IMG/VR virus record: IMGVR_UViG_3300036944_000979
Span: 1 to 28,703 of that record
Direction: 5' to 3' (one strand)
DNA: 28,703 nucleotides
Source: a virus
Shown: one piece after another, positions 11,216 through 27,000 of the stretch
Position numbering within the stretch: the first letter of the stretch is position 1
Layout: each line of letters opens with the position of its first letter
Notes under the pieces: generated by a model
Databases searched by the model: none
What the model was told of the DNA's origin: nothing
The model's input: the letters and a program-made list of their open reading frames with translations, nothing else
Translations under genes and position numbers: made by a program

Positions 11216-11957
11216 GCCCTACAGAGAGACCCCCCCCTAGCCCTAGGCTGGGGGGTTTTTTCTTGCCGTGTGCCGTAATAGCCATTCCAGCCTTTTGCCG
11301 TAGCCAGAATAGGCTGGGCATAGCAGGGCTCATCAGCGCCCATTGAGCCAGATACAGACCCCCCCGCCCCCCTATCAGGCGCAGGCAGGGGGTTGCGTGA
11401 CATCCACCCCCTCAGCGGAGTCAGACGGCCTCAGGAGGGCTTGGAGGGGTGTCTGTAAGTATTTCCCTCAGGACAGCCCGTCAGCGCCCCTAGGAGGGCT
11501 TGGAGATACTTGACTAGTATCAGACACCTAACCCACCAGCCAGCCCCTCACAGACCCCCTCAGAGGCCAGGCAGTTCTAGCCCCCTTGACTAGCCCCCTT
11601 AGACTAGACACTCAGACTTAGACCTAGACCCCCCTAGACAAACTTTTATTCTTTGATTCAAGAAAAAATAATTTATTTTTCTAGCCCCCCTAGACAAAAG
11701 TTGTCTAGCCCCCCTTGACAGTTTCTGACTAGACCCCCTCGATTTTAGGAAACAAATTAGGCCTTGCCCGAAAACATGTCGCTGCCTTCTCACCCGTCAA
11801 AAGCAGTTAGCGTTAAGGTACTAAACCCTCCTCTCCGTACACCCCCCCCCCTCTCTTTTTAAAAAACTACCCCACCCCCCTGTTTTTAAACGCACTAAAA
11901 ATTTCCAAAAAATTTTTTAAAAAATAAACGCCCCTACTTCACACTAAACTGAATCGT
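11216..11957 (+). other. Long non-coding region with C-runs and CTAG repeats
   Basis: After a terminator (11230-11264), about 700 nt hold no believable gene. They contain runs of 5-10 C, a direct repeat AGGAGGGCTTGGAG (11433 and 11492), a dyad GATACT-TGACT-AGTATC (11505-11521), about ten CTAG sites between 11500 and 11740 mostly next to CCCCC, a hairpin CTAGACAA-AAG-TTGTCTAG (11690-11708), and AT-rich blocks at about 11640-11680 and 11855-11935 with the palindrome AAAAAATTTTTT (11907). Repeats beside AT-rich DNA fit an origin, terminus or control region; none is proven. Confidence 0.6.
11230..11264 (+). terminator. Terminator closing the small-gene array
   Basis: CCCCCCTAGCC pairs with GGCTGGGGGG, followed by T6CTT. 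Unlike the others it is not followed by the 14-mer element. Confidence 0.85.
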
Positions 11958-12449
11958 ATGTCCAGAAAAGCAGCTCGCGGTCAGAAGCTTCCGCCGCAAG
12001 AGGTAGAGCTTCTAAACTCAATCGCTACAGACGCCCTTATTGGTAGAGTCACCGCCCTCTACACAGAAGGATGGTCTCTCCAGTGCATCGGTGAGGCATT
12101 AGAACCTAGACGCCCGCGCACAACGATCCGCAGCTGGGTAATGAAGAACCAGCCCAATATTGTAGACGCCCCTATTCCATCTCCTAAAGCAGCTGTGTCT
12201 GAAACTGGATACCAGAAAAAGAGAGTGTCTCCAGGTATCCCCCAGAACTCCTTCGAGGACATACAGCAGCTTTCTCCTCTAGCTCGTACTTTTAGATCAA
12301 GAATGGCGTCTACTTCAGCGCCTGCAGTAGCCAACCAGCGCCTAACTCAGATCTGCAAAGATCTATACGCAAATAGCGTCTCAATTCGCGAACTCGCTGA
12401 AGCAGCGGGCGTAACCTACCGAGCAATGTACAAGAGAGTTAAGCTCTAG
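11958..12449 (+). CDS. Two-HTH DNA-binding protein
   Basis: The protein has 163 residues from ATG 11958. There is no ribosome site; TAAACT (11945-11950) ends 7 nt before the ATG, which suggests a leaderless mRNA. An N-terminal HTH-like region (about residues 27-60, ALYTEGWSLQCIGEAL then TTIRSWV) and a C-terminal one (about 135-161, SIRELAEAAGVTYRAMYKRV) flank a Pro/Ser-rich linker. It may regulate the adjacent control region or be a small-terminase-like protein; the sequence does not decide. Confidence 0.75.
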   Translation: MSRKAARGQKLPPQEVELLNSIATDALIGRVTALYTEGWSLQCIGEALEPRRPRTTIRSWVMKNQPNIVDAPIPSPKAAVSETGYQKKRVSPGIPQNSFEDIQQLSPLARTFRSRMASTSAPAVANQRLTQICKDLYANSVSIRELAEAAGVTYRAMYKRVKL

Positions 12450-12456
12450 TTACGAT

Positions 12457-12485
12457 TTGACAAACAGAAAATGACTTACTAGGGT
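12457..12485 (+). promoter_or_regulatory. Promoter of NlpC/P60 gene
   Basis: TTGACA (12457-12462), 17 nt, TAGGGT (12480-12485). A second -10, TGCTATCCT, lies 15 nt further on. The 14-mer element of the array is absent. Confidence 0.7.
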
Positions 12486-12510
12486 CTTTTTTGTGCTATC
12501 CTTTTACACG

Positions 12511-12607
12511 GAGGGCACATTCTTTCACTAAAAGAGAGGGTGTGCTTTTTAGCATCTCTGGAGCATTTGAGCTAGAGTGCAACAACATAACTGAATAGTC
12601 GAAAGAC
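12511..12607 (+). promoter_or_regulatory. Structured 5' leader, possible attenuator
   Basis: Three stem-loops follow the promoter. GCACA (12515) pairs with TGTGC (12541), encloses TCTTT-CACTA-AAAGA, and is followed by T5. The next stem is built from GCA, CTCT and AGC pairing with GCT, AGAG and TGC (12552-12580). The third is GTC-GAAA-GAC (12598-12607). The first hairpin plus T-run could stop transcription. No riboswitch class is recognised by eye. Confidence 0.4.
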
Positions 12608-12667
12608 AACCCCAAACAAGAAACGACCGAGTACTAAAGTATTCAAATTCTGAAAGGTAGGTCGCCA

Positions 12668-13423
12668 ATGCAAAAAAGGTTCATTTCAATTAGCGTAATC
12701 GCGCTAGTGATGACAAGCTCTACGGCAGCATTCGCCAAGTTGACAGACGAAGGTGTTAGCTCCAAGGAGTCAGCAACAATCCAACAGGTAACTGTTGAAC
12801 CCGAATTGATCACCGCTTCACCTGTGAGGGTGGAGAGCGTTCTTTCCGGGCCAGTAAAAGTATCACCACTATCAACAGGTCCAGTGTTCTCAACCGAAGA
12901 GGCTGAGGTTGGATCTGTGGAGTGGCTAGCACAAGAAAAAGCTAGACAGGACAAACTCGAATCAGCTGCTGAGCGCAAGCAGGCAGAACTTGAGGCAGAG
13001 ATTGCACGTCTAGAGAAAATTGCTAGAGACACAAAAAATCTCAACAAAGCAATAGCCGCAACCAAAAAATATGTTGGCAAGACCTGGTATGTGCTAACAG
13101 GATCCACCCCAGACGGGTGGGACTGCTCGGGTCTAGTTATGTGGACATATGGCAATCTTGGAGTCAATCTCTACCATGGCGCTACAGCACAGAAAAACTC
13201 GGGGGAGTTTGTGACTGAGCCAAAGATTGGTGACATAGTGGCGTTTACCCGCAAAGGCTCGAACAGCGCCTTCCATACCGGTATCTACATCGGACCAGAT
13301 GAGATGATCCACGCCGGAGGTAAAAAAGGAGATCGGACTGAAACAGTGTCCATCCGCCGCTGGGCAAAAGGAAACGGCAACGTTGAGGTTACATACACTC
13401 GACTTGTAGAAACAAATAATTAG
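12668..13423 (+). CDS. Secreted NlpC/P60 cell-wall peptidase
   Basis: The protein has 251 residues from ATG 12668, behind GAAAGGTAGG. A Sec-type signal peptide (basic QKR, hydrophobic core, AFA cleavage site near residue 23) is followed by a Val/Ser-rich segment and a charged coiled coil (about 80-130). The NlpC/P60 domain carries the catalytic set: C153 in DCSGL, H203 in FHTGIYIG and H215 in MIHAGG. Such enzymes cut D-gamma-Glu-diamino acid bonds in peptidoglycan stems. A signal peptide is unusual for an endolysin; it could be a Sec-exported endolysin or a wall-modifying protein. A holin-like gene follows. Confidence 0.9.
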   Translation: MQKRFISISVIALVMTSSTAAFAKLTDEGVSSKESATIQQVTVEPELITASPVRVESVLSGPVKVSPLSTGPVFSTEEAEVGSVEWLAQEKARQDKLESAAERKQAELEAEIARLEKIARDTKNLNKAIAATKKYVGKTWYVLTGSTPDGWDCSGLVMWTYGNLGVNLYHGATAQKNSGEFVTEPKIGDIVAFTRKGSNSAFHTGIYIGPDEMIHAGGKKGDRTETVSIRRWAKGNGNVEVTYTRLVETNN

Positions 13424-13428
13424 AAACC

Positions 13429-13462
13429 GAGAGGGCCCCTCTCTCGGGAGGGGCTCTTCTCT
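13429..13462 (+). terminator. Terminator after NlpC/P60 gene
   Basis: GGCCCCTC pairs with GAGGGGCT, extended by AGAG/CTCTT, with a pyrimidine tail rather than pure T. Confidence 0.75.
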
Positions 13463-13467
13463 CTAAC

Positions 13468-13496
13468 TTGACAAATTAAAATTTATGCAGTACCAT
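13468..13496 (+). promoter_or_regulatory. Promoter of holin-like gene
   Basis: TTGACA (13468-13473), 17 nt, TACCAT (13491-13496). A direct repeat CAAACGACA (13497 and 13511) follows at the start site. Confidence 0.65.
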
Positions 13497-13530
13497 CAAA
13501 CGACAAGTACCAAACGACATAAGGATAAAA

Positions 13531-13803
13531 ATGAAAAACGTTTATAAGAGCATCGTGCTCGCAGTTGTATTCGGAAACGCCATTGCGTTCCCTGTTGTCA
13601 CTTACACTTTCCCTTGGGACACTTACCTAATTGACCCAACCCCGTACTACATTGTTCAGGCAGAGTCACTAGGCTTTCTAATTGCCGCTTGCATCTTTGT
13701 TTACGAGTGGGCAAAGTACGGACAGAAGCCAAAGTTCTTCGACAAACTGAAGGGCAAGACAAGTAAACTAAAGGGCCTGACCCCAACTTCGAGATCTAAA
13801 TAG
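13531..13803 (+). CDS. Two-TM membrane protein, holin candidate
   Basis: The protein has 90 residues from ATG 13531, behind AAGGATAAAA. Hydrophobic segments at about residues 7-26 and 42-59 are followed by a strongly basic tail (KFFDKLKGKTSKLKG). Two TM segments plus a charged C-terminus, directly after a peptidoglycan hydrolase, is a usual holin layout; this is inference from context. It has its own promoter. Confidence 0.75.
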   Translation: MKNVYKSIVLAVVFGNAIAFPVVTYTFPWDTYLIDPTPYYIVQAESLGFLIAACIFVYEWAKYGQKPKFFDKLKGKTSKLKGLTPTSRSK

Positions 13804-13811
13804 TACAAACG

Positions 13812-13840
13812 TTGCACATATCCGCTACTAGTGATATGCT
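13812..13840 (+). promoter_or_regulatory. Promoter giving a leaderless start
   Basis: TTGCAC (13812-13817), 17 nt, TATGCT (13835-13840). The ATG of the next gene is 6 nt after the -10, so the RNA would begin at or next to the start codon. Confidence 0.75.
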
Positions 13841-13846
13841 AACGAT

Positions 13847-14053
13847 ATGAATCTTGAAACCTTACTTCCGACCCTCGGATGGTTGTTGGTTATAGCGATT
13901 ATTGCAGCACCAGTTGCAGCTCGCCTATTCAACAACCTCCGTACGGTTCGACGCATCCGCCAGCACAAGAAGAGCCTCCCTGGACCACTTCTTGGTGCTG
14001 TATATCCTGAGCACAAAGACTCAACCATTTATCGCATTAACAGAGAGGACTAA
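13847..14053 (+). CDS. Small one-TM membrane protein
   Basis: The protein has 68 residues from ATG 13847, apparently leaderless. One hydrophobic segment (about residues 5-28) is followed by a very basic stretch (RTVRRIRQHKK), so the C-terminus should be cytoplasmic. First gene of an apparent operon that ends with katG. Confidence 0.75.
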   Translation: MNLETLLPTLGWLLVIAIIAAPVAARLFNNLRTVRRIRQHKKSLPGPLLGAVYPEHKDSTIYRINRED

Positions 14054-14055
14054 AC

Positions 14056-14223
14056 GTGCGCATCTATCTTTTCCTACGTTCAATAGTTTGGACTTCGGTT
14101 TTGTCCGTTGCTTCTATTGTTGCTTCACTGATATCGGCGTTTATCGCTCCGAATCTGACCCTCGCACTTGGACTAGCGTCTATCGCTTTGGCCACGCTAT
14201 CTCCGCGCAGATCTGACTACTAA
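14056..14223 (+). CDS. Small two-TM membrane protein
   Basis: The protein has 55 residues from GTG 14056, two bases after the previous stop. Nearly all residues 9-48 are hydrophobic, enough for two short TM segments, and the tail ends PRRSDY. The stop overlaps the next ATG (TAATG), which supports it as a real gene. Function unknown. Confidence 0.65.
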   Translation: MRIYLFLRSIVWTSVLSVASIVASLISAFIAPNLTLALGLASIALATLSPRRSDY

Positions 14224-14384
14224 TGCAAGAGGCACTACTCCTAATTGCACTCGGCATAGCAGCTCTATTGTTTCTACTGTTTGTAGCTACGTCTATTGCA
14301 GCCTTCTTTGTGTTCCTCGGAGCTCCTGACGATTTCAATGACGTACACATCGAAGGAACCATCAACAGAAAGACAAATGACTAA
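14223..14384 (+). CDS. Small one-TM membrane protein
   Basis: The protein has 53 residues from ATG 14223, coupled to the previous gene. A continuous hydrophobic segment (about residues 4-34) is followed by an acidic tail (GAPDDFNDVH). It overlaps the next gene by 8 bases. Third tiny membrane protein in a row; they may form one complex. Confidence 0.65.
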   Translation: MQEALLLIALGIAALLFLLFVATSIAAFFVFLGAPDDFNDVHIEGTINRKTND

Positions 14385-14676
14385 ATTGCCACAGCCCCAA
14401 AGAAGTAGAACCTTTAGCGTTCACGACTATGACGACTTCAGAGACTTGATTCCTACTAGCGGTCTTTTTGAAATGACAGACTGCGCCGTAGAGATATGGT
14501 GCCCAGAATTAGCTGAAACCGAGGAGATCCAGAAGATGGTTACCTTGATTGAATCTATGGTTCACGTCACAGACATTCGAATCGGTTCTGATATTGAAAA
14601 CTTGACATCTGACGACTACCGTGTTGTACTTATCGAAGATAACAACAATATCGGTAGGAAGCGCTTCATCCGATAA
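14377..14676 (+). CDS. Unknown small soluble protein
   Basis: The protein has 99 residues from ATG 14377, overlapping the preceding gene by 8 bases. The frame also runs 27 codons upstream, but the ATG at 14377 fits the tight spacing. It is acidic, with an alternating beta/helix pattern and two Cys (DCAVEIWCPE). No motif recognised. Confidence 0.7.
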   Translation: MTKLPQPQRSRTFSVHDYDDFRDLIPTSGLFEMTDCAVEIWCPELAETEEIQKMVTLIESMVHVTDIRIGSDIENLTSDDYRVVLIEDNNNIGRKRFIR

Positions 14677-14687
14677 AAGAGAGAAAA

Positions 14688-15272
14688 ATGACCACTACTA
14701 GCGATGATAAGAAATACATCAAGAAGAACCAGCGTCTGCCCGAAAGCATCAACGCAGAGTTCGAGTTGATCACCGACAACTTGCGCAGAGACAGACTGAT
14801 TAAAGAATTAGTTAACGCAAACTGGACTTACGAGGCTATCTCAAACGCTTCCGGTTTGACCAGAGAACGAATTCGACAGATCTCTAATGCCGCGGATAAG
14901 ATCCCCAAGGAAGGGATTATCCTCAACGTTGATATTCCGGAGCCTCCTGTAATTCAGGAGAAGAAGCCTAAGGAATACGTAGAGCCTTCACCAGAAATAT
15001 TGAAGCGCCTATTAGAACTTCAGCCATATGCTCAGCAGGTTCGTGCAAATGGAACTAAGTACCGCGCAGAAGCTGAAGAGTACACAGAGTTGCTTAACCA
15101 CGCTCGAACAGTAGAAGGCGTAACCCTCTACCGTTTGGCTAAGCGTCTAGGCATCACTCACGGTGCGATCCGTTTCCGTTTGGCTCGCTACGGCTACATC
15201 CAACCAAAGAGTGCAAAGTCTAAGGTTTACCAGCCGATCCTAAAAGATAACCGACTAATTAAAGACGTTTAA
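14688..15272 (+). CDS. Two-HTH DNA-binding protein
   Basis: The protein has 194 residues from ATG 14688, with AGAGAG upstream. The first HTH (about residues 35-66: LIKELVNANWTYEAISNASG, then LTRERIRQI) looks like a sigma-70 region 4 fold; the second (about 145-170: VTLYRLAKRLGITHGAIRFR) is a classic HTH. A Pro/Lys/Glu linker separates them. The layout resembles the protein at 11958. It could regulate late genes or the katG operon. Confidence 0.8.
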   Translation: MTTTSDDKKYIKKNQRLPESINAEFELITDNLRRDRLIKELVNANWTYEAISNASGLTRERIRQISNAADKIPKEGIILNVDIPEPPVIQEKKPKEYVEPSPEILKRLLELQPYAQQVRANGTKYRAEAEEYTELLNHARTVEGVTLYRLAKRLGITHGAIRFRLARYGYIQPKSAKSKVYQPILKDNRLIKDV

Positions 15273-15499
15273 TGCAAAACCTAAATGATCTCTACAAACT
15301 TGAGATACAGCAAGAGCGCTTTGCGATGCTTGTTGCTGCTCGCGTTAATGACATCCTTTCTGGAGAAGCCAAGGTTTTGGAATTTCCAGAGGTAGGCAGC
15401 GTGTTTAATCCAACAGAACAGCAACAACTAATTTTTGCTGACAAAACTGCACGAATCGTGTGCGCAACTTTAAATAAATTAAATTCAGGAGAGGTATAA
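15272..15499 (+). CDS. Unknown small protein
   Basis: The protein has 75 residues from ATG 15272 (TAATG overlap with the HTH gene). Helical N-terminus, mixed charge, one Cys. Its last codons hold the AGGAGAGG ribosome site of katG, whose ATG follows the stop with no gap. Confidence 0.75.
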   Translation: MQNLNDLYKLEIQQERFAMLVAARVNDILSGEAKVLEFPEVGSVFNPTEQQQLIFADKTARIVCATLNKLNSGEV

Positions 15500-17668
15500 A
15501 TGACAGACGAGGCAAAATGCCCGGTTCCACAGGGGGCGTCTAACGTAACTAGCAATGCCAACACAAGCAAGTGGTGGCCAGAGCAGTTAACAACTGAAGC
15601 ACTAATCCACAATTCCCCGAAGTCTGATCCTTATGGTCCGGACTTCGACTACGCTACAGAGTTCCTAACTCTAGATCTCGCTGAGGTTGAGGCTGACATT
15701 TCAGCTACCCTAGTTGACTCTAAGAGCTGGTGGCCTGCAGACTACGGAAACTACGGTCCGTTCATGATTCGCTTGGCCTGGCACTCTGCCGGAACCTACC
15801 GAGTCTCAGATGGACGCGGTGGTGCTGGACAAGGTCTACACCGTTTCGCACCACTTAACTCATGGCCAGACAACGTAAACCTAGACAAGGGTCGCCGTCT
15901 ACTTTGGCCAGTAAAGCAGAAGTATGGACGTAAGCTCAGCTGGGCTGACCTATTCATCCTTGCAGGTAACGTTGCACTCGAAGACATGGGCTTCAAGACC
16001 TTCGGCTTCGCCGGTGGCCGCGCAGACGTTTGGGAGCCAGACAACACTTACTGGGGCTCAGAGACCGAGTGGTTGACTAACGGCCGCTACGATGCATCTC
16101 GTGAAGCAGGAACTCTAGAAAACCCGCTAGCCGCAGTCCAGATGGGACTTATTTACGTAAACCCAGAGGGTCCAGACGGTAACCCAGACTTCAAGCTAGC
16201 CGCTGCAGACATCCGCGAGACATTCGGCCGTATGGCAATGAACGATGAGGAGACTGTTGCGCTTATTGCCGGTGGTCACGCTTTTGGTAAGACTCACGGT
16301 GCAGGCGACGCAAGCCAGGTTGGCGTTGAGCCAGAAGGTGCTCCAATCCACCAGGTTGGTATCGGCTGGGCAAACTCGCAGGGCAAGGGTCACTCAGAAG
16401 ACACCATCTCTTCTGGCCTAGAAGTTACTTGGACTCCAAACCCGATTCAATGGGACAATGACTACCTCAAGCTAATCTACGAGTACGACAACTGGGAGAT
16501 TGAAGAATCACCAGCTGGTGCAAAGCAGTGGCGTCCGATAGCTGACGAAGTTCACCTTGCTCCTCACGCGCACTTGGAGAACCAGTTCGTTGAGATCCGC
16601 ATGCTAACTACCGATCTAGCTCTACGCTTCGGCGACGAGAAGTACGACGAAATCTGCCAGAAGTTCCTTGCAGACTTTGACTATTTCTCTGATGTCTTTG
16701 CTCGCGCCTGGTTCAAGTTGACTCACCGCGACATGGGACCGAAGGCTCGTTACCTAGGTTCAGAAGTTCCAGAAGAAATTCTGCTCTGGCAGGACCCAGT
16801 AACTCCTGGTAATTCAGAGCCGCTTTCTGTTTACGAGCAGGAAGAGCTTGATGGACTGATTAACGAGTCTGGCTTGGGTGTGACTCAGCTACTACGTACG
16901 GCATGGGCGTCTGCGTCTACCTTCCGCAACACCGACAAGCGCGGTGGAGCAAATGGTGCACGTGTATTCCTAGAGCCTCAGCGCAGCTGGGACGTAAACG
17001 ATTCAGAAGAGCTAACCACTGTTCAGCGAAAGCTAAACAAGGTTCGAGAACTATTCACTGGAGAGATCTCTCTAGCTGACCTAGTTGTTTACGCTGGAAA
17101 CTATGCCCTAAAGCTAGTAATCGTCCAGACCCCGACTCACGTTGAGATTCCATTCCTTGGCGGCCGTGGAGATGCAACTCAGGAGCAAACTGATGTTGAA
17201 TCTTTCAACCACCTACGTCCAGTTGCTGACGGTTTCCGCAACTATGCTCCAGGACACGAAGACATCGCAGAGCGTCTACTTCTAGAGAAGGCAGCCCTAC
17301 TTGGCTTGACCCCTCCAGAGCTGACAGTTCTTGTTGGTGGTCTACGTGTTCTAGGCGTAACTCATGGTGACATCAAGCACGGAGTTCTAACTGACACCCC
17401 GGGTACGCTAGACAACTCGTACTTCCGCAACCTACTAAGCAACGACATTGCGTGGGCACCTAAGGCTGGCCAGCCGGGCGTCTACGGATCACACGCTTAC
17501 AAAGATGGAGAACGTAAATGGACGGCAACTCGCGCAGACCTAGTGTTTGCTTCGAACTCGGTTCTACGTGCGCTCGCCGAGGTCTACGCTTCGGATGATG
17601 CAAACATTAAGTTCATCAACGACTTCGTTGCTGCATGGACCAAGGTTATGAACGCAGATCGTTTCTAG
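15500..17668 (+). CDS. katG: Catalase-peroxidase
   Basis: The protein has 722 residues, full length for the family (E. coli KatG 726). It converts H2O2 to water and oxygen with heme b and also has peroxidase activity. The distal site IRLAWHSAGTYR gives R91, W94 and H95. The W-Y-M cofactor needed for catalase activity is complete with Y219 (in IYVNPEGP) and M245 (in FGRMAMNDEE), at the E. coli spacing. The proximal heme ligand is H260 in GGHAFGKTHGA. The heme-free C-terminal domain is present to the end (GGRGDA, EQTDVESF, ADGFRNY). It is the last gene of an operon of phage-like HTH and membrane genes and ends at a terminator. No signal peptide, so cytoplasmic. Confidence 0.97.
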   Translation: MTDEAKCPVPQGASNVTSNANTSKWWPEQLTTEALIHNSPKSDPYGPDFDYATEFLTLDLAEVEADISATLVDSKSWWPADYGNYGPFMIRLAWHSAGTYRVSDGRGGAGQGLHRFAPLNSWPDNVNLDKGRRLLWPVKQKYGRKLSWADLFILAGNVALEDMGFKTFGFAGGRADVWEPDNTYWGSETEWLTNGRYDASREAGTLENPLAAVQMGLIYVNPEGPDGNPDFKLAAADIRETFGRMAMNDEETVALIAGGHAFGKTHGAGDASQVGVEPEGAPIHQVGIGWANSQGKGHSEDTISSGLEVTWTPNPIQWDNDYLKLIYEYDNWEIEESPAGAKQWRPIADEVHLAPHAHLENQFVEIRMLTTDLALRFGDEKYDEICQKFLADFDYFSDVFARAWFKLTHRDMGPKARYLGSEVPEEILLWQDPVTPGNSEPLSVYEQEELDGLINESGLGVTQLLRTAWASASTFRNTDKRGGANGARVFLEPQRSWDVNDSEELTTVQRKLNKVRELFTGEISLADLVVYAGNYALKLVIVQTPTHVEIPFLGGRGDATQEQTDVESFNHLRPVADGFRNYAPGHEDIAERLLLEKAALLGLTPPELTVLVGGLRVLGVTHGDIKHGVLTDTPGTLDNSYFRNLLSNDIAWAPKAGQPGVYGSHAYKDGERKWTATRADLVFASNSVLRALAEVYASDDANIKFINDFVAAWTKVMNADRF

Positions 17669-17686
17669 CCAAAGCTAAACAGTAAG

Positions 17687-17727
17687 ACCCCTGCGCTACT
17701 CCACCCGGAGCTGCGCGGGGGTTTTTC
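17687..17727 (+). terminator. Terminator after katG
   Basis: ACCCCTGCGC pairs with GCGCGGGGGT and CTCC with GGAG inside, followed by TTTTCTTT. Confidence 0.85.
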
Positions 17728-17743
17728 TTTGCAAATATTGTCC

Positions 17744-17764
17744 CCCAGCTGGTTCTGCTATAAT
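17744..17764 (+). promoter_or_regulatory. Promoter of fibre-like gene
   Basis: Consensus extended -10, TGCTATAAT (-10 at 17759-17764), with only a weak -35 near 17744 (TTGTCC, 15 nt). Confidence 0.65.
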
Positions 17765-17805
17765 CTTGCTTGGGACCACATTATCGCGAAGAAAGACCAT
17801 CCATT

Positions 17806-18738
17806 ATGGCATCTAACTCAACTCCAGAATACAAAGTAATCGCTGACCAGATTATCTCACCTGACGAAGACATCATTGTAAAAATTGCTGGCGGTATCTA
17901 CAAAGATTCGATCTCAGAGCAGAACCGCTACGTTACCGTATCTGATGGTCTAACCCTTCAGATCCTTGACGCTCACGACACCTACGAGGACTTCATCGAT
18001 GAGCACCCTACTGGCGAGCCTGGCGACCTTCACATTGTTGACGGCGTTCTATATGCATGGAACAACCACACCAACGAGTGGGTAAACTCTGGAAACCTTA
18101 AGGGCGACGACGCGAACTTCCTAAACGTAACTACCAACATTGTTCCAGACACTGACAACACTCGCTCTCTAGGTACAGCCGAGAAGCGCTTCTCAGAAAT
18201 TCACATTGGGCCTGGAACCATCTACATCACCGATGACGTGACTGGCGATGACGCTGGACTAACAGTTTCTGACGGTGTTCTTCAGATTGACGGCGCTAAC
18301 CAGCTTCAGGTTGGTCAGCTAAAGTTTGTTGACAACAACATCGAGTCAACCTCTGGATCAACCGCTATTGAAATCGGTCAGACATCCTCTTCAGCTAACC
18401 TCGTACTAAAGAGAAACACTGTAATCGATGCCACCAAGACACTAGCTGTCAAAAAGATCCTCGGCACCGCAGCCTCTACCGATATCGAGCTCGGCACTTC
18501 AGGTGACAGCGGTGACATCTCTCCAAAGCGAGATATCCACTTTGAAGACGGTCACAAGCTAAAGTTTGGAACTGGCCGTCGAGTTGACATCGAACCATCT
18601 CTAGCCCCGTACGGCAAGCAGACCGTTTGCGTAAAGACTACTGGCGGTAAGAACGACATGTACTGGGGTTCATGCGCAAGCAACGGAATCACCGGTGGTA
18701 CTGACTACTACATGCTTGCTACCTTCACCACAAGTTAA
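17806..18738 (+). CDS. Tail-fibre-like structural protein
   Basis: The protein has 310 residues from ATG 17806, behind GAAGAAAGACC; the frame extends 12 codons back to the predicted RNA start and is not used. The segment DTDNTRSLGTAEKRFSEIHIG followed by GPGTIYI is the hallmark of phage fibre and spike repeats (S-L-G-x-x-x-x-R-F/W-x-x-I-x-x-G). Repeated short beta segments (LTVSDG twice, DGVLQIDG) suggest a beta-helical or trimeric fibre, with a Cys-containing C-terminus. Probably host-binding or tail-tip. It is set apart from its neighbours by its own promoter and terminator. Confidence 0.6.
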   Translation: MASNSTPEYKVIADQIISPDEDIIVKIAGGIYKDSISEQNRYVTVSDGLTLQILDAHDTYEDFIDEHPTGEPGDLHIVDGVLYAWNNHTNEWVNSGNLKGDDANFLNVTTNIVPDTDNTRSLGTAEKRFSEIHIGPGTIYITDDVTGDDAGLTVSDGVLQIDGANQLQVGQLKFVDNNIESTSGSTAIEIGQTSSSANLVLKRNTVIDATKTLAVKKILGTAASTDIELGTSGDSGDISPKRDIHFEDGHKLKFGTGRRVDIEPSLAPYGKQTVCVKTTGGKNDMYWGSCASNGITGGTDYYMLATFTTS

Positions 18739-18753
18739 AGTTTGTAAAAAGAT

Positions 18754-18780
18754 ACCCCTGCCTAGGCGGGGGTTTTCTTT
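18754..18780 (+). terminator. Terminator after fibre-like gene
   Basis: CCCCTGCC and GGCGGGGG pair around TA, followed by TTTTCTTTT. A GTAAAAAG word precedes it, as at array terminators. Confidence 0.85.
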
Positions 18781-18797
18781 TAGGGTAAGATAAAACA
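18781..18797 (+). promoter_or_regulatory. -10 box with likely leaderless start of terminase
   Basis: TAGGGTAAGAT ends at 18791 and the terminase ATG follows 6 nt later, with no ribosome site between. The similar TAGGGTAAAAT occurs at 24032 and GGTAAAAT at 28493. The -35 region is occupied by the terminator and is weak. Confidence 0.5.
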
Positions 18798-20231
18798 ATG
18801 GGTAAAAGCATCATGGAACAGATCTCGTTACTCCCAGATCAGGAGCGATACGAGATCCTCGCTGGCATGGACCCAGACGCACTCGTCTGGGATTGGTCTG
18901 TCTGGGGTAGACCCGAGCAGTTCTGCCCACCTGGTATTGATTGGAACGTCTGGCTTGTACTTGCAGGTCGTGGTTTCGGTAAAACCCGTCTAGCTTCAGA
19001 GTGGGTTCGTGAACAGGCAAAATACACCACTACTGGCCAACGGCGTTTCGCACTTGTTGCTCGTACCGCAGCTGACGTACGTGACGTTATCGTTGAAGGT
19101 GAGTCGGGAATTATCAACGTCTCCCCTCCTTCCGAGAAACCACTATACGAACCTTCGAAACGTCGACTAACCTGGCCAAACGGAAATACTGCCACACTCT
19201 TCACAGCCGATGAGCCTGACTCACTCCGTGGTCCTCAGTTCACTCACGCCTGGGGCGATGAGATTGCCGCTTGGCGTCAGACTCCAGATGCTGCGGGTAT
19301 GACCGCGTTCGACAACTTACGAGTTGGTACTCGTCTTGGTGCTAATCCTCAAATGGTAGTTACCACCACCCCGAAGCGTGTCCCGCTTCTATACAAACTT
19401 ATTGAAGAATCTAGAACTGACAGGTCAGACGGTAGACCATCAAACGTAAGAGTAACTCGCGGCTCGACCCTGGATAACGCAGGTAACTTGTCTCAGGCAT
19501 ACTTGGACACGATTACTGGCGTTTACGAAGGAACATCGCTTGCCCGCCAGGAACTCTATGGTGAAATGTTGGATGACGTCGACGGCGCTCTATGGAGCGA
19601 AGAGATGGTCGAATCAGCTCGCGAAGCTATGTACCCATTCTCGACTCCACTTCGCGTAATTGGTGTTGACCCTTCGGTCGCCGAAAACCCTCGCGACGAA
19701 TGCGGCATCGTAGTAGTTGCATCTACTGCAGATCACGACCTATACAAGCGCAACGCTTGGGTGTTAGAGGATGCGTCTATTCACGGCTCACCGGATACCT
19801 GGGCTCGTAAAGTAGTAGAAATGGCACGGAAATGGGGCTGCCCGGTTGTTGCTGAAGTTAACCAGGGTGGAGCTTTGGTTAAGAATGCCATTCTTTCGAT
19901 TGATCCAAGCATTAAAGTGCTTGAAGTGCACTCAAAGTACGGAAAACAGCTCCGTGCAGAGCCAATTGTGCTCGCATACGAGCAGGGACGTGTTCACCAT
20001 GTTGGATACCTGCCAGATTTAGAGTCTCAGATGTATTCTTGGATCCCAGAAAGCTCATCTAAATCACCTGACCGCGTCGATGCACTTGTTCACGCGCTAA
20101 CTGCACTCCTAATTAAGCCACCTCCAGGCTTTTCAGGCGGAAAAATTCGCGCAAAAAGCTTCGCAGACCGCAAATTGGGAGTGTCAACCTCAAGTAATCG
20201 TCCTGCCGGGCGTGTTTTTAGGGTTAAATAA
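18798..20231 (+). CDS. terL: Terminase large subunit
   Basis: The protein has 477 residues from ATG 18798 (a second ATG at codon 6 is possible). The motor of head packaging: an N-terminal ATPase with Walker A GRGFGKT (residues 57-63) and Walker B HAWGDE (D154, E155), a coupling-type segment VVTTTPK, and a C-terminal RNase-H-like nuclease with VIGVDPS (D291) and later acidic residues including SPDRVDALVHAL near the end. Length and motif order are normal for the family. The stop overlaps the next ATG. No adjacent small subunit is recognised. Confidence 0.95.
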   Translation: MGKSIMEQISLLPDQERYEILAGMDPDALVWDWSVWGRPEQFCPPGIDWNVWLVLAGRGFGKTRLASEWVREQAKYTTTGQRRFALVARTAADVRDVIVEGESGIINVSPPSEKPLYEPSKRRLTWPNGNTATLFTADEPDSLRGPQFTHAWGDEIAAWRQTPDAAGMTAFDNLRVGTRLGANPQMVVTTTPKRVPLLYKLIEESRTDRSDGRPSNVRVTRGSTLDNAGNLSQAYLDTITGVYEGTSLARQELYGEMLDDVDGALWSEEMVESAREAMYPFSTPLRVIGVDPSVAENPRDECGIVVVASTADHDLYKRNAWVLEDASIHGSPDTWARKVVEMARKWGCPVVAEVNQGGALVKNAILSIDPSIKVLEVHSKYGKQLRAEPIVLAYEQGRVHHVGYLPDLESQMYSWIPESSSKSPDRVDALVHALTALLIKPPPGFSGGKIRAKSFADRKLGVSTSSNRPAGRVFRVK

Positions 20232-20590
20232 TGAAAATTGTCCTTGACCGCTTCCCTTGCCACTTAGCGGCGATTGGGCCAGGAAAAGTCGAAGATGTCA
20301 CCACTATGCGAAGCTTTGAGCCGACTCCGGGGTCTAATTATTTAGAGATTACCCGAGTCATAGTCACCGATACTCATGTTGTAGTGGCAAAAGACGGAAA
20401 CAGCGGCCCTCAGATAGTATTTCAAGAGACCTACGAAACATTTATCCCATCTAAGGAGCCTACAAAAGATTCTTTTGTTGTCACGACTTCGGGAAAGATG
20501 ATAGCATTCAAGAAAGATACGGGCTGTGGCTGTGGATCTCGCCTACGAGGTTGGAATCCATACAATACGCTGGGCTCAATAAAGGATTAA
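20231..20590 (+). CDS. Unknown phage protein with Cys-rich tail
   Basis: The protein has 119 residues from ATG 20231, overlapping the terminase stop (TAATG). Beta-rich body, then a conserved-looking C-terminal segment TGCGCGSRLRGWNPY with two closely spaced Cys. Genes with this kind of tail often sit between terminase and portal in actinophages (recall). Function unknown. Confidence 0.8.
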   Translation: MKIVLDRFPCHLAAIGPGKVEDVTTMRSFEPTPGSNYLEITRVIVTDTHVVVAKDGNSGPQIVFQETYETFIPSKEPTKDSFVVTTSGKMIAFKKDTGCGCGSRLRGWNPYNTLGSIKD

Positions 20591-20591
20591 A

Positions 20592-20882
20592 TTGGAAATT
20601 AGTGCAGTAACTTTAGTAATTTTGGCACTTGCTGCCTATAGATTGACGCATTTGGTCACAACTGACGCAATTGCAGACGGTTTTCGCACAAGAGTGTGGA
20701 AAAAGTTTCCCCCAACGACAAAAATTGGATATTTGATTACTTGCAACTGGTGCACTGGATTTTGGGCATCAATTTTTGTAGTTATTTTCTGGTTAACTTT
20801 ACCCCAAGCGGCCTTTGTGGTATCATTAGTCTTGGCTATTTCTGCTTTAGTCGGGCTTTTGTCAGCCTGGACTGAACGCTAA
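20592..20882 (+). CDS. DUF1360-family membrane protein
   Basis: The protein has 96 residues, TTG start at 20592 behind AAAGGATTAAA. An N-terminal TM segment ends in AAYRLTHLVTTDAI, then come a basic loop, the CNWCTGFWAS motif and a second long hydrophobic region (about 55-90). The Y-R-L-T start and C-x-W-C-x-G-F-W motif are the DUF1360 pattern, which is frequent beside terminase genes in phages of Gram-positive bacteria. Biochemical role unknown. Confidence 0.8.
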   Translation: MEISAVTLVILALAAYRLTHLVTTDAIADGFRTRVWKKFPPTTKIGYLITCNWCTGFWASIFVVIFWLTLPQAAFVVSLVLAISALVGLLSAWTER

Positions 20883-20898
20883 CAGGTAGGAGCCCCTC

Positions 20899-22617
20899 TT
20901 GGGTATTTTTAAGAAAGAAAACGCTAAACCGAGCGAAACTCGTAGAAACGTGCGTGCTTCAGCCCCAAAGAACGCTACTCGCGTAGCTCCTGGCATTTCA
21001 GTTGACTCTTTTGGGATTGTTTACGCAGAGCCTCAGGTCTTTAACACCCCTCGACCTATGACAGCAGCTGCTGCACAGGTAAATCTTCAGGACAAGGGCG
21101 AAGCTGAGCTATTTAAGTCTCGTCGTCAGTCTGCATCTACCTCGTGGCAAAGTGAAGCATGGGAATACTACGACTCTATCGGCGAAGTTAAGTACGCTTT
21201 CAACCTAGTTGCGTCTGTTGTCTCTCGAATTAGACTCTACGCCGCTGCAATCAATAACCCGAACGAAGCGCCTGCCCCTATCGACGATGTAACTAAGGTT
21301 GATCGACGTCTAGCAGCCGCTGCAGAGCGTGCGCTAGATCGATTGAGTTCAGCTTTTGGTGGTCAAGCGGGTCTACTCAAGGATGCAGCTCTTAACTTGC
21401 AGGTAACTGGCGAATGCTACCTAGTTCAGATCCCTGAACGTGTTGGTTCTGGTCTGCCAGAGTCATGGGACGTTCGCTCTGTTGACGAACTTCAGATTGA
21501 CCAAAAAGGAAACTACATCATCAACCCTCGTCGCGATGTTGGCGGCGGCGGAATGATGTCTCAGGGCAATAAGGAAGCAATCGGGCTTCCTCCTAAGGCT
21601 TTTGTTGGTCGCATTTGGCGAGCACACCCTCGCTACACTCAGGAAGCTGACTCTTCACTTCGCGGTCTGCTAGATCTTTGTGCCGAGCTTCTACTCCTAA
21701 ACCGTACTTTCCGTGCAACTGCACGTTCGCGCCTAAACGCTGGTGCTCTCTACTTGCCAGACGGTCTATCAGTAGCTGCGTCTCCGGATCCAGATTACCC
21801 ATATGACGAAGACGGCGAATACAACCAGCAGTACAACCCAGAAGAAGCTGCTGACGACTTCGAAGACCAGCTCATCGATGCGATGACCACTCCTATTAAG
21901 GACGAGGATTCTGCGAGCGCGGTTGTTCCGCTAATCATTCGTGGTCCAGCAGAGCTTGGTGACAAGATCAAGCAGTTCAAGTTCGAGCGATCTTTCGACC
22001 CAGCCCTTGCCCAGCGTGCTGACCGTGTACTAGAGCGCATCATGCAGGGTCTAGACGTTCCCAAAGACATCGTAACGGGACTTGCTAACGTCAAGTATTC
22101 CAACGCTTTACAGATAGACGAGAGCCTCTACAAGGCTCACATCGAGCCTCTGATGCTACTTATCGTTGACGCACTGACAGTTATGTACTTGCGTCCATAC
22201 CTAATCGCAAACGGATACTCTGAACAAGAAGTGAAGAACGTTTGCATCTGGTACGACCCATCTCTAGTTGCCACTCGCAACGACCGTGCTGCGGATGCAG
22301 ACATGGGATTCGACAAGATGGCGGTATCCTACGATGCATGGCGTCGTGCTCACGGGTTTGCGGAGACTGACGCTCCAGACCCTACAGAGTACGCACTTCG
22401 ACTAATCATGAGCAAGGGTATGGTAAGCCCCGAGCTGACTGAGCGCATGCTCGGTGCTGTTGCTCCAGACCTTATGCAAAAAATTCGTGCAGCAAAAATG
22501 CAAGAAAGTGGAGCAGAGATTCCACCAGAGATCGACAAACTACTACAGGGCGGATCTCCAGAAGCCGCCCCCGCACCTGGAGCGCCAGCTACAGGACTAG
22601 CAGAGCCAGAGGCATAA
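20899..22617 (+). CDS. Portal protein
   Basis: The protein has 572 residues, TTG start at 20899 behind AGGTAGGAG. The portal forms the dodecameric ring through which DNA enters the head. Supporting segments: an N-terminal helix-rich part with EAWEYYDSIGEVKYAFNLVA, a long core with LLLNRTFRATARSRLNAG, and QGLDVPKDIVTGLANVKYSN, typical of actinophage portals in the clip/stem region. The C-terminus is Ala/Pro-rich and disordered. Its place two genes after terminase supports the call. Confidence 0.85.
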   Translation: MGIFKKENAKPSETRRNVRASAPKNATRVAPGISVDSFGIVYAEPQVFNTPRPMTAAAAQVNLQDKGEAELFKSRRQSASTSWQSEAWEYYDSIGEVKYAFNLVASVVSRIRLYAAAINNPNEAPAPIDDVTKVDRRLAAAAERALDRLSSAFGGQAGLLKDAALNLQVTGECYLVQIPERVGSGLPESWDVRSVDELQIDQKGNYIINPRRDVGGGGMMSQGNKEAIGLPPKAFVGRIWRAHPRYTQEADSSLRGLLDLCAELLLLNRTFRATARSRLNAGALYLPDGLSVAASPDPDYPYDEDGEYNQQYNPEEAADDFEDQLIDAMTTPIKDEDSASAVVPLIIRGPAELGDKIKQFKFERSFDPALAQRADRVLERIMQGLDVPKDIVTGLANVKYSNALQIDESLYKAHIEPLMLLIVDALTVMYLRPYLIANGYSEQEVKNVCIWYDPSLVATRNDRAADADMGFDKMAVSYDAWRRAHGFAETDAPDPTEYALRLIMSKGMVSPELTERMLGAVAPDLMQKIRAAKMQESGAEIPPEIDKLLQGGSPEAAPAPGAPATGLAEPEA

Positions 22618-22618
22618 T

Positions 22619-23074
22619 ATGGAAAGCAACAAGACGGATGTAGCGCAGAAGTTAGCATTAGTGCTATCTGATGTAGTTACTGCAAAATTTATCCTTCACG
22701 GATACCACTGGAACGTAATGGGACCAGACTTCGGCGAGTACCACGAATTCTTTAGAACCTTATATGAAGACGTAGATGGTTCTGTTGACGAACTAGCAGA
22801 GAACATCTTAAAGGTCGGCTTCCCGGCTCCGTACTTGCTGACAGACTTCACCGAGATGTCATGTATCAAGGAAGAGCGTCAAGACGGTACTTCAAGCAGA
22901 TTCCTACTACAGTCAGCCCTGCGTATTATGGAACACCTCTATGATTGCCACAACGAAGCGTTCCGAGCTGCTCAACACTGTGAACTTCAGGGCCTTATGG
23001 ACTTCCTAGCTGCACGCATGGATATGTACTCTAAGTGGATTTGGCAGATCAAGGCATTTTTAGGAGTTCGCTAA
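22619..23074 (+). CDS. Dps-family protein with altered ferroxidase residue
   Basis: The protein has 151 residues from ATG 22619, one base after the portal stop, with a weak AGAGG site. The helix segment HGYHWNVMGPDFGEYHEFF followed by DGSVDELAEN is the Dps signature. Dps shells oxidise Fe(II) with H2O2, store iron and may coat DNA. Against the E. coli site (H51, H63, D67, D78, E82) the equivalents are H30, H42, R46, D57 and E61, so one iron ligand is replaced by Arg. There is no basic N-terminal DNA-binding tail, and the protein is a little shorter than E. coli Dps. The stop overlaps the next ATG. Confidence 0.9.
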   Translation: MESNKTDVAQKLALVLSDVVTAKFILHGYHWNVMGPDFGEYHEFFRTLYEDVDGSVDELAENILKVGFPAPYLLTDFTEMSCIKEERQDGTSSRFLLQSALRIMEHLYDCHNEAFRAAQHCELQGLMDFLAARMDMYSKWIWQIKAFLGVR

Positions 23075-24024
23075 TGTCAGAGTACCTAGATAAAGTTCTT
23101 CAGGCTTCTGGTGGTCACGCAGCCCCTGTAGAGAACCTAAAAGAGCAAGACATCCGTGCCTCGCTTGAGGCAGCTGGAATGCTTGTCCCGGAAGAGCAGG
23201 ACCTCGCCGATGCTCTGCTCAAGATTGTAGAAAAGTACGGTAAGTTCAACGACGACAATAGTGGCGTTTGGGCTGGATACGACTCCGCAGAGAAAAACGT
23301 AGAGAACGCCAAGATTGGCGTTAAGTGCGGAAACTGCGTTTTCTACAACGCACCAAATGGTTGCTCAATCATTGCTGCTGCAGTAGAAGAGGGCGGCTTG
23401 TGCCGCTTTGCCGTACTTCCAGACGGTGCAGTCACTGCAGCCGCAGAACTTGAAAAAAGTGAAGACGACCCTTGCTGGGATGGCTATGTTCAGGTTGGTA
23501 TGAAAAAGAAGAACGGCAATAAAGTTCCTAACTGTGTGCCATCATCTGCAACCATTAACTACTTGATTGACGACATTAATTCGTCTTTCGGTGTGTCACG
23601 CCACGTAAGCAAGGAAGCTGCGTACGAGGTAGCCAGAAAAGCTTGCGACAAGTACAGTTACCTCTCATCGTGCGAAGACATTCACTCTGCAATCATGTGG
23701 GAACTCCACACTTTTGCTGAATATGCAACCACCGGTCTTGTAGCCGACGGCGAAGACTTCTCGATGTATGCTGACTTGCTATCTGAGGGCCACCCGGACA
23801 CGGATTCTTCCTTAGTTGCTTCACTAGTGTGGGTGTCAGGCGCTCCAGAGCTAGATAACTCTGGTCGTCAGGTCCTTATCAATGCCTTTAGCAACGAGTC
23901 TGATTATGTAGATTCTTTGCATTCAAGCACCCGACTTAAGGTTTTAATCTCTAGCGGAAGCCTGTCGGAGGCCACAACGAACCAACTAAAAACTGCGGTT
24001 CAGCGCTACCAACAAGTCGACTAA
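23074..24024 (+). CDS. Head-region protein with four-Cys cluster
   Basis: The protein has 316 residues from ATG 23074 (TAATG overlap with the Dps gene); 13 upstream codons lie inside that gene. The segment VKCGNCVFYNAPNGCS up to C110 gives C85, C88, C97 and C110, a compact four-Cys cluster that could hold zinc or iron-sulfur. Then comes DPCWDGYVQVGMKKKNGNKV with PNCVP, a motif seen in several phage head-associated proteins. The C-terminal half is helical. Role in head assembly is inferred from position only. Confidence 0.8.
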   Translation: MSEYLDKVLQASGGHAAPVENLKEQDIRASLEAAGMLVPEEQDLADALLKIVEKYGKFNDDNSGVWAGYDSAEKNVENAKIGVKCGNCVFYNAPNGCSIIAAAVEEGGLCRFAVLPDGAVTAAAELEKSEDDPCWDGYVQVGMKKKNGNKVPNCVPSSATINYLIDDINSSFGVSRHVSKEAAYEVARKACDKYSYLSSCEDIHSAIMWELHTFAEYATTGLVADGEDFSMYADLLSEGHPDTDSSLVASLVWVSGAPELDNSGRQVLINAFSNESDYVDSLHSSTRLKVLISSGSLSEATTNQLKTAVQRYQQVD

Positions 24025-24031
24025 ATTTTAA

Positions 24032-24047
24032 TAGGGTAAAATTTTAC
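24032..24047 (+). promoter_or_regulatory. Late-type promoter element with palindrome
   Basis: TAGGGTAAAAT (24032-24042) overlaps the perfect palindrome GTAAAATTTTAC (24036-24047). It lies in the only sizeable gap of the head genes, 33 nt before the next ATG. Confidence 0.5.
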
Positions 24048-24079
24048 TTAGATTTTATTATTATCTGTAGAGGATATCC

Positions 24080-27000
24080 ATGCCTAACGAGCTGCACACG
24101 CGCTTAAATTCACTAGTAGCATCCATTGGGTTCAATGATGGTGCTAATAAAGGCTTTTGGCGAGTCCAGCCACGTGAAAAATTTGGCGAAGATGCTGGTC
24201 AGTGGATCGAAATGGGCGCAGAACTTCGCATGTTCTACAAGAACGAGCGTGGCGAAACTGCTAGCGTAACCGGAAGAGCTGTAGGTTCTACTGGTACCCC
24301 TGACGGTGTTCGTGTTCTAATCCAGGGCAAAGACTCTGAAGGTGTTGCCGACGGTATTTATGGTGCTAACACAGCTAACGTTCGAATTGCAGATGCTATT
24401 ATTCCGGACGAAGTCCTAAAAGAGCAGGGCATCGAAAACAAACCACAGATTAGTGAAGAGCAGCAAGCAACTCTTCCAACTCTTGATCAGCTAGAAAGAG
24501 CTGACATCACCGACGAGGACGTCCGCCTTATCAATGAAGGTATCGACTCGCCTGAGGCAAAAGAGCAGGCAGCATACAAGAAGTCTGTAGAAGCTGAAGA
24601 ATCAAAAACCGTTAATCCTGATTTCGATGGAAGGCCTGTACCAGACCTAACTCCGGAAGATGTTCTAGACCAAAAAGAAGACGATGAATACGGCGACAAA
24701 TGGGTAGAGTGGCTAGATGAGCGCTCCCCAAATGTAGAGATCAAGAAAGACCCGAGAAAAGAATCTAGGGCTGTATACTCTCAGAGAGATCAAAAGCGGA
24801 GAATTCTAGAAAAAGCTCTTGGCAGAGGTCTTGAAATAGAAGAGATAAATGCTCTAAAGCTAAATCCTGGAGGAGATGGCGGCAACCCGCTTGAGGACGG
24901 GCCAGAGTTCGAGCGCTACCACAAACAATTAATCGACGGGATGAGAGCAGAGCTCTTAAAAAATGCCCCTGCAGCCGAAACTAAAAAGGCCGTAATAGAG
25001 GAAGAGCCGAAGGTCAGAAGTGCCTCCAAGGACATTTTCCCGGAGGATCCATACAAGAATGACAAAGAACTACCTTCTCAAAAATTTGAACCTAAACGCC
25101 CCGCGGGCGTAAGTGAGAAAGCTAAGTACACCCCAGGGTTTCAACGGATCGGCGGTACCTGGCAACAAGGATTTTGGACCGAACCTAACGGCGACGTACG
25201 CATGGATACCATTACTCCTTTCCCGGGCAGTTCGCCAGTCATTGAAATGCTCGCACCTAGAGACCCAATTGCAGAAGTTATTGCCGATGTTGCCTACAAT
25301 GGTGACACCGAAGAGACCTTAGATGCGCTTATCCAGAAGGTAGAAGCAGAGTCTAAGGTTAAGAAAGTTAAGGGATTCAGCCTTGACCGCGGAAATGTTA
25401 TCCGCTCTAATGATGGAACCGACTTCACTATCGAAGACATTGATTTTGAAGCTAAAACCATGAAGCTGTTGACCGCAGACGGTCGCCCAGTCACTAGACA
25501 GGTGCAGGACCCGAGAGACCCTAGCAAGCAGGTAGCCACTCGACTATTCCCTATTGACCCTAAGAAGGAATACTCTGTCGTCTCAGGTAAGAAGGGCCTA
25601 CCTAAGCCAGCAAAGCCAGCACCTAAGGCCGAGACTCCTGCCGCCCCTGAGGTCACCCCGAACGCACCCGAAACTCCTGAAATCCCGGAAGCTCCAGCTG
25701 CCGAAGTACCTGAAACTCCAGCTAAGCCTCAGAAGATCGGTGCGGCTAAGCGCCGTGCAGATGATGGCAAAACAATCAAGCGCCAGGAATTTACTCCTGA
25801 AGAACTAGAGGCCTTGCGCAAGACTAAGCTAGACCCACTTGTAAACGAGAATGGTGAAGCTACCCTAGAGACCGACTCTAAGGGCAAAGTTCGTCAGCCC
25901 CGTGACCCTAACGCGATGCTAAACTTCTTGGCCGACACCTACAAGAACTCTAAGTTCAACGATAGAGGTCAGCTAGTTCTGATGCGTGAAACTTCTACCG
26001 AGAACGGCAAGAACATTGAGTGGGAGATCCGTGCAGCCATTACTGGTGAAAAGAAGATCGCTTACATGTTCCACTTTAAGGACTTGGACACTGGCGAAGA
26101 GCAGACACTTCTACACAAGGATGCTCGTGACTCTGTTCAGTCTCTAATTGGAAAGACTAACGGTCCAGAGGTTCTTGCTGACATTCTTACCGGTAAAGAG
26201 ACCCGTAAGTACAGCCCAACTTTTGATACAGCTGTCCACGCTAACGACGTTCTAGAGCGCTCTCTATACTTTAAGTATCAGGGCAGAACTAAGACAGTCG
26301 CCGAAAGTGCAAAGTACTACTCGACTGGATACGCCGAGCGAGTAAACCCAGTTAATGGAACACTTCTAGAGCAGGAAGTTCCTAGCACATTTGAAGCTTA
26401 CAAAAACAAAGACCGAGCAGCCCTAGAAGCTAGACTCCGTGCAGTGTTTGGGCGTCTACCGATAGACGAGCAGACTCACGAAGAAGCTAGAACCGCTATT
26501 AGAGAGTTGTTTGCCGAGCGCTTCCCAGAGGAAGACAAGAGAAGCTTCAGCATGGCCGTTACCATGGCATCTAAGGCTGTGCAGCAGAATCTTCTAGACA
26601 CTCCAGAGAACCGAGCAGTGCCTTGGTCATCTAAGGACAAGGTCACCTCACTTGAGGTCGGACAGATTGTCGAGTACGAAAACAACATCAAGGAAAAGTC
26701 GACCGTCCGTGTGATCGGAAAGCAGAAGGTTAACACTTCTAGCCCTGCTCAGAGCGATGACATTTTTGATTACGGTGACTACGTAACTGTAATTGATGCA
26801 GATGGCAAGAGAACATCTCTACCTTCAACTAGCTTGGCTATCCTTAAGGATCAGAAGACTGAGCTAACCACCTATAAGGGTCGTGTATCTGGTGCTCGTC
26901 TTCGTGAAGAGCGTGGAGTATTCTATACACCTGGCACCCTAAGATTCCCTGGACAGACAACTATTCCAGACAGAATCTCTAAGGTCGATGACCTAGTTCC

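Follow-up and report, generated by a model that had tools for sequence, protein, structure and literature searches.

Why would a bacteriophage carry a gene for a complete catalase-peroxidase (KatG)? The question is raised by a katG gene in a 28,703-nt viral DNA sequence (IMG/VR record IMGVR_UViG_3300036944_000979), called the window below. A preliminary description, made from the letters of this DNA, had interpreted katG as a strong candidate auxiliary metabolic gene for the removal of H2O2 during infection.

The katG gene and its neighborhood

The product of katG matched two NCBIfam KatG models with curated cutoffs over its whole length, TIGR00198 (cat_per_HPI; 965 bits, cutoff of 770) and NF011635 (1,065.8 bits, cutoff of 981). 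It contained two Pfam peroxidase stretches, and the solved KatG of Burkholderia pseudomallei (5l05) aligned to residues 1 to 722, end to end. All 12 residues that we checked were present: R91, W94, H95, D124, N125, Y219, M245, H260, S305, W311, D372, and R410, which include the distal Arg-Trp-His, the proximal His-Trp-Asp, the Trp-Tyr-Met adduct, and the switch Arg. The earlier claims that the gene is full length and retains its heme-site and W-Y-M cofactor residues were thus borne out. An AlphaFold model of KatG, built with 13 viral sequences, was of poor quality (pLDDT of 62) and was set aside; the fold assignment rests on similarity to solved KatGs.

In an alignment of 58 viral KatGs (19 and 39 from the two clades described below) and 108 bacterial KatGs, 11 of the 12 heme-site and adduct residues were invariant throughout. 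The exception was the serine corresponding to S315 of Mycobacterium tuberculosis, replaced by Gly in 8 of the 108 bacterial proteins; all 12 residues were invariant among the viral ones. Comparison of seven phage pairs yielded dN/dS values of 0.07 to 0.17 for katG, indicative of strong purifying selection. The gene is surrounded by the following features.

14688 to 15272, plus strand: helix-turn-helix (HTH) protein resembling sigma-70 region 4; forms the conserved left border of a variable slot
15272 to 15499, plus strand: 75-aa gene, member of a small undescribed family, directly 5' of katG; LVAARVN motif, two predicted helices
15500 to 17668, plus strand: katG, catalase-peroxidase, 722 aa; open reading frame and family match, all active-site residues present
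about 17687 to 17727, plus strand: intrinsic-terminator-like hairpin with T tract, putative end of the KatG transcription unit, from sequence and fold
17806 to 18738, plus strand: tail-spike-like protein, optional slot gene; start at 17806 (MASNS...) assigned by homology
18798 to 20231, plus strand: terminase large subunit (TerL); conserved right border of the slot
20899 to 22617, plus strand: portal protein (phrog_776, 5e-104)
22619 to 23074, plus strand: Dps/ferritin-like protein (PF00210, solved Dps match)

The preliminary description had placed katG in a phage operon, with zero spacing behind small genes and before the terminase module. The first part held: the stop codon of the 75-aa gene (TAA, 15497 to 15499) abuts the katG start (ATG, 15500), and a ribosome-site-like GGAGAGG lies just 5' of that start. 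The terminase, however, is cut off by the apparent terminator and the tail-spike-like gene. The hairpin 3' of the katG stop is strong (-32.8 kcal/mol, z of -5.8) and is followed by a T tract, and an extended -10-like motif, TGCTATAAT, lies between the hairpin and the tail-spike-like gene. Thus, most simply, katG would be the last gene of an upstream transcription unit and lie outside the terminase unit. For the 75-aa protein, AlphaFold predicted a two-helix hairpin (pLDDT of 85), so simple a shape that a fold search would be of little use.

The order of the HTH gene, the 75-aa gene, katG, and the terminase gene was seen again in contigs of other metagenomes, and its extension to portal and Dps was found in many other contigs, with KatG identities of 60 to 81%. 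An independent contig (L001) was identical to positions 11851 to 26933 of the window across 15,083 nt, and the GC3 of katG (0.51) was like that of neighboring genes. Together with the low dN/dS, these results exclude misassembly and gene decay for practical purposes. katG therefore lies within phage genes, reproducibly and under purifying selection, as is expected of an auxiliary metabolic gene.

Two other parts of the window were of note. The stretch from 11226 to 11950 comprises about 700 nt with no convincing gene; it is G+C rich, its GC skew is reversed, and it contains clustered repeats around CTAGCCCCCCTAGACAAA at 11586 to 11724. It is possibly a control region or an origin. Downstream of Dps, positions 24080 to 28282 encode a 1,400-aa protein with an HEFGH motif (HExxH, metallopeptidase-like) near its C terminus and an N-terminal "GANKGFW" module resembling slot open reading frames of contigs L206, L199, and L212; no Pfam family scored above the cutoff for this protein. 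Scans for Rfam families and tRNAs in the window gave no matches.

Exchange of genes in the variable slot

We examined contigs containing both borders of the slot (the HTH gene and the terminase, at least 78% identity), which were dereplicated to 46. These slots were drawn from the best-scoring terminase relatives and not randomly, and most records are fragments. The distance from the HTH gene to the terminase ranged from 26 to 6,537 nt, and the terminase-to-Dps intervals were mostly a few to tens of bases. KatG was found in 14 of the 46 slots, in the same place before the terminase (the window's virus is counted here, as L001). Three slots contained an AhpC-type peroxiredoxin, two of them with thioredoxin reductase (TrxB) and thioredoxin (Trx), and none contained both KatG and AhpC. 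Heme oxygenase was present in 12 slots, 8 of which had KatG, which it often follows. Peroxiredoxin, TrxB, Trx, and heme oxygenase were identified by Pfam. Since 25 of the 46 slots had none of KatG, AhpC, and heme oxygenase, the peroxide cassette is dispensable or placed elsewhere, which counts against the explanation that we favor below.

The closest KatG-free relatives, with TerL proteins 96% (L165 and L166) and 90% (L170) identical to that of the window, had AhpC-TrxB-Trx in the slot. The 75-aa gene was also found 5' of AhpC in relatives; overall, it occurred in 15 of 17 peroxidase slots versus 1 of 29 others (Fisher's test, 4e-9, uncorrected for relatedness). Among the seven whole records longer than 100 kb, three had KatG, two had AhpC, and none had both above the cutoff. 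In one of the three (G405), KatG was at a distant locus and belonged to the same clade as the window's KatG; in one of the two, AhpC was likewise at a distant locus. The rule that KatG and AhpC never occur together rests on these few long records, because the others may be incomplete.

Among 15 KatG-bearing relatives, KatG identity did not follow TerL identity (Spearman coefficient of 0.16). The identities of the portal, Dps, and the HTH gene did so, with coefficients of 0.71, 0.65, and 0.53, respectively. In contig L005, for example, the terminase, portal, and Dps were 97%, 95%, and 93% identical to those of the window, versus 75% for KatG. This uncoupling indicates that KatG is swapped among phages as cargo, independently of the terminase, and peroxide defense in these viruses appears to be an exchangeable component.

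A Dps/ferritin-like gene was present in 18 of 19 records of the phage family and adjoins the portal gene in the window, where its product (22619 to 23074) matched PF00210 at 8.7e-11 and a solved Dps at 2e-17. Of the putative ferroxidase ligands of the Dps type, H30, H42, D57, and E61 were invariant; the acidic residue expected four positions after H42 was not conserved.

Several slot genes deserve separate mention. The GDLSGGQ motif seen in solved heme oxygenases is retained by the L005 enzyme; the heme oxygenase of L165 (8834 to 9421) is divergent, with GDLAAGP at this position, and may differ in function. An open reading frame of about 180 aa directly 5' of the terminase (7619 to 8152 in L008, 9457 to 9996 in L165) is common to KatG and AhpC slots and had no Pfam match. 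In L355 (G405:20000-34000) and L011, a KatG of the window's type lies far from the terminase and a few kilobases from a serine-recombinase-like open reading frame.

Origin of the viral KatGs and the phage host

In a tree with 118 rows, the viral KatGs formed two clades. The clade of the window (19 rows) was purely viral, had a long stem, and fell outside the sampled bacteria, and the other (39 rows) was nested among KatGs from actinomycetes with small genomes. In a tree with 69 rows, the two viral clades were joined with a support of 93, and the addition of five KatGs from small-genome actinomycetes (1.3 to 1.8 Mb) to the joined clade was not rejected (AU, 0.91). Viral KatG may therefore stem from one or from two old acquisitions; both are possible. 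A recent transfer from a host was rejected, as the nearest bacterial KatGs found were only about 60% identical. Contigs of the 39-row clade reach 120 kb and carry Hsp20 and HslV-like genes. Some have a glutathione peroxidase (GPx)-like gene beside KatG or about 2 kb away (L057, 9551 to 9982; L036, 13837 to 14295; L068, 14373 to 14831; L044, 14433 to 14894), a label based on a sequence motif, as the matching PHROG 5295 carries no assigned function.

KatG matches in records of enterobacterial and Acinetobacter "phages" appear to be cellular katG genes within entries filed as phage and were set aside. Three short, unannotated enterobacterial records with katG or pieces of it (OR845325, OR851603, and OR851039) probably contain host DNA.

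The window's TerL was 72% identical to that of Actinomycetia phage DSL-LC01 and 63% identical to those of 190-kb Microbacterium phages, and its terminase kin infect Microbacterium and Gordonia. Relatives in IMG/VR reach 152 to 154 kb, so that the window, at 28.7 kb, probably represents part of a larger phage genome. WhiB, an actinobacteria-specific transcription factor, can be used to recognize actinophages (PMC9878933). It was found in 15 of 19 relatives and in all 4 tested records of the other KatG-bearing phage group; among 14 control genomes, it was found in Corynebacterium only. WhiB genes in relatives and terminase kinship to Microbacterium phages thus provide good support for a host within the Actinomycetota. 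This evidence reaches the phylum level and does not extend to the acI lineage ("Candidatus Nanopelagicales"). The contigs appear to come from freshwater environments.

Proposed role in infection and comparison with known systems

An auxiliary role in peroxide defense, as first suggested, is still the best reading of an intact KatG in a slot where AhpC, TrxB, and Trx can take its place. More specifically, we consider it likely that these phages carry an exchangeable anti-peroxide cassette that works during infection and that Dps is the constant part, which handles iron and protects DNA. In a large actinophage of this type, the slot between the HTH gene and the terminase would hold the cassette, which in the window would consist of the 75-aa gene and katG, with transcription most likely starting upstream and stopping at the terminator. 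KatG, made by the phage during infection and supplied with host heme, would destroy H2O2 via its catalase and peroxidase cycles. Using H2O2 as the oxidant, the phage Dps would sequester Fe(II), and it would also shield DNA; replication and packaging would thereby be spared damage in peroxide-exposed hosts.

What argues most strongly for peroxide removal as the function under selection is the nonorthologous replacement of KatG by AhpC, TrxB, and Trx. In mycobacteria, KatG and AhpC are partly interchangeable, as seen in the overexpression of ahpC in katG mutants. An exchange of one for the other within a single phage slot, with the same small gene in front, would amount to a natural experiment in which peroxide removal is selected. 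Peroxide limits the growth of some abundant freshwater actinobacteria, and the exchange would thus link phage gene content to host peroxide sensitivity. The 75-aa gene provides a new lead. A bolder proposal, to which we give slightly less than even weight, has two parts: a modular peroxide-defense island, in which the 75-aa partner accompanies either KatG or AhpC-TrxB-Trx, often with heme oxygenase, a constant Dps lies elsewhere, and enzymes of different chemistry interchange; and a phage-specific KatG lineage, its proximal pocket altered, that evolved for peroxide-sensitive planktonic hosts.

Heme complicates the cassette model. KatG needs heme, for which Nanopelagicales have no recorded pathway (PMC7527133); a host from this group would therefore depend on heme uptake. 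The heme oxygenase beside KatG in many relatives would consume heme, which also counts against the model. Unlike these relatives, the window has no heme oxygenase, at least in the slot. Iron recovered from heme could plausibly feed Dps.

Possibly, KatG serves phage replication less than it shields the infected cell from outside peroxide, such as H2O2 formed photochemically or released by protist grazers in an oxidative burst. In one study, genes against reactive oxygen species (ROS) occurred in >10% of the freshwater phages, for which "phage-mediated ROS defense" was proposed (Kavagutti et al. 2019, PMC6802176), and a second, distinct actinophage group has KatG, in some cases with the GPx-like gene nearby. 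This interpretation is compatible with the cassette model, and sequence cannot tell the two apart.

It is rather unlikely that KatG instead makes up for an absent or poor host KatG, as in acI group A, and so restores a lost host function. Some acI strains depend on catalase, so the help to acI growth cited in the preliminary description is documented, and the cloned KatG of "Ca. Planktophila rubra" was no functional catalase, with added catalase enabling growth (PMC7527133). The reduced KatG tree can also hold the viral clades together with KatGs of the 1.3- to 1.8-Mb actinomycete genomes. However, the phage host is resolved to the phylum only, and the larger tree places the window's clade outside.

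It seems improbable that phage KatG does not work as a catalase and is instead a weak or repurposed peroxidase. The residue right after the proximal heme His is Ala in all 58 viral KatGs and Thr in 102 of 108 bacterial ones; the KatGs of small-genome actinomycetes have Thr as well. Moreover, the cloned acI KatG lacked catalase function although its group has all known active-site residues (PMC7527133); such residues alone are thus no proof of activity. Against this stand the same Ala in 4 of 108 bacterial KatGs, the invariance of all catalytic and adduct residues, the strong purifying selection, and the replacement of KatG in its slot by other peroxide-scavenging enzymes. An assembly chimera or bacterial contamination, in favor of which no evidence was found, can be dismissed, given the identity to L001 over 15,083 nt, the synteny in many contigs, the phage-like codon composition, and the position of KatG in a clade of viral sequences only.

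Returning to the cassette model, we found no report in the open-access literature of an exchangeable slot, heme oxygenase, or 75-aa companion, and nothing relevant on heme oxygenase or peroxiredoxin in actinophages. Cellular KatGs (HPI; B. pseudomallei 5l05 and M. tuberculosis 1sj2) share the two-domain protein and active site with phage KatG, but the phage clades are separate, with long stems, and have Ala for Thr immediately behind the proximal His. A related terminase (72% and 63%) and portal are found in DSL-LC01 and in Microbacterium phages such as A3Wally; unlike the window, these phages are without KatG, and no Dps was found within the genome stretches compared. KatG is encoded by viruses of Lake Mendota, where katG is listed among the auxiliary gene families said to be consistently active over decades (Zhou et al., as cited in PMC12713726), and of a European estuary, where metatranscriptome data gave higher gene and transcript counts at low salinity (PMC13390420). 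PMC12713726 and PMC13390420 describe viral katG without gene order, AhpC/TrxB/Trx exchange, or a Dps or heme oxygenase context. The freshwater phages of Kavagutti et al. (2019, PMC6802176) have genes for ferritin, superoxide dismutase, glutathione peroxidase, and thioredoxin, ROS genes as here, but the main text of that study names neither catalase nor KatG. KatG as a viral auxiliary gene and ROS genes in freshwater phages were thus known, and the gene arrangement in the slot seems to be new.
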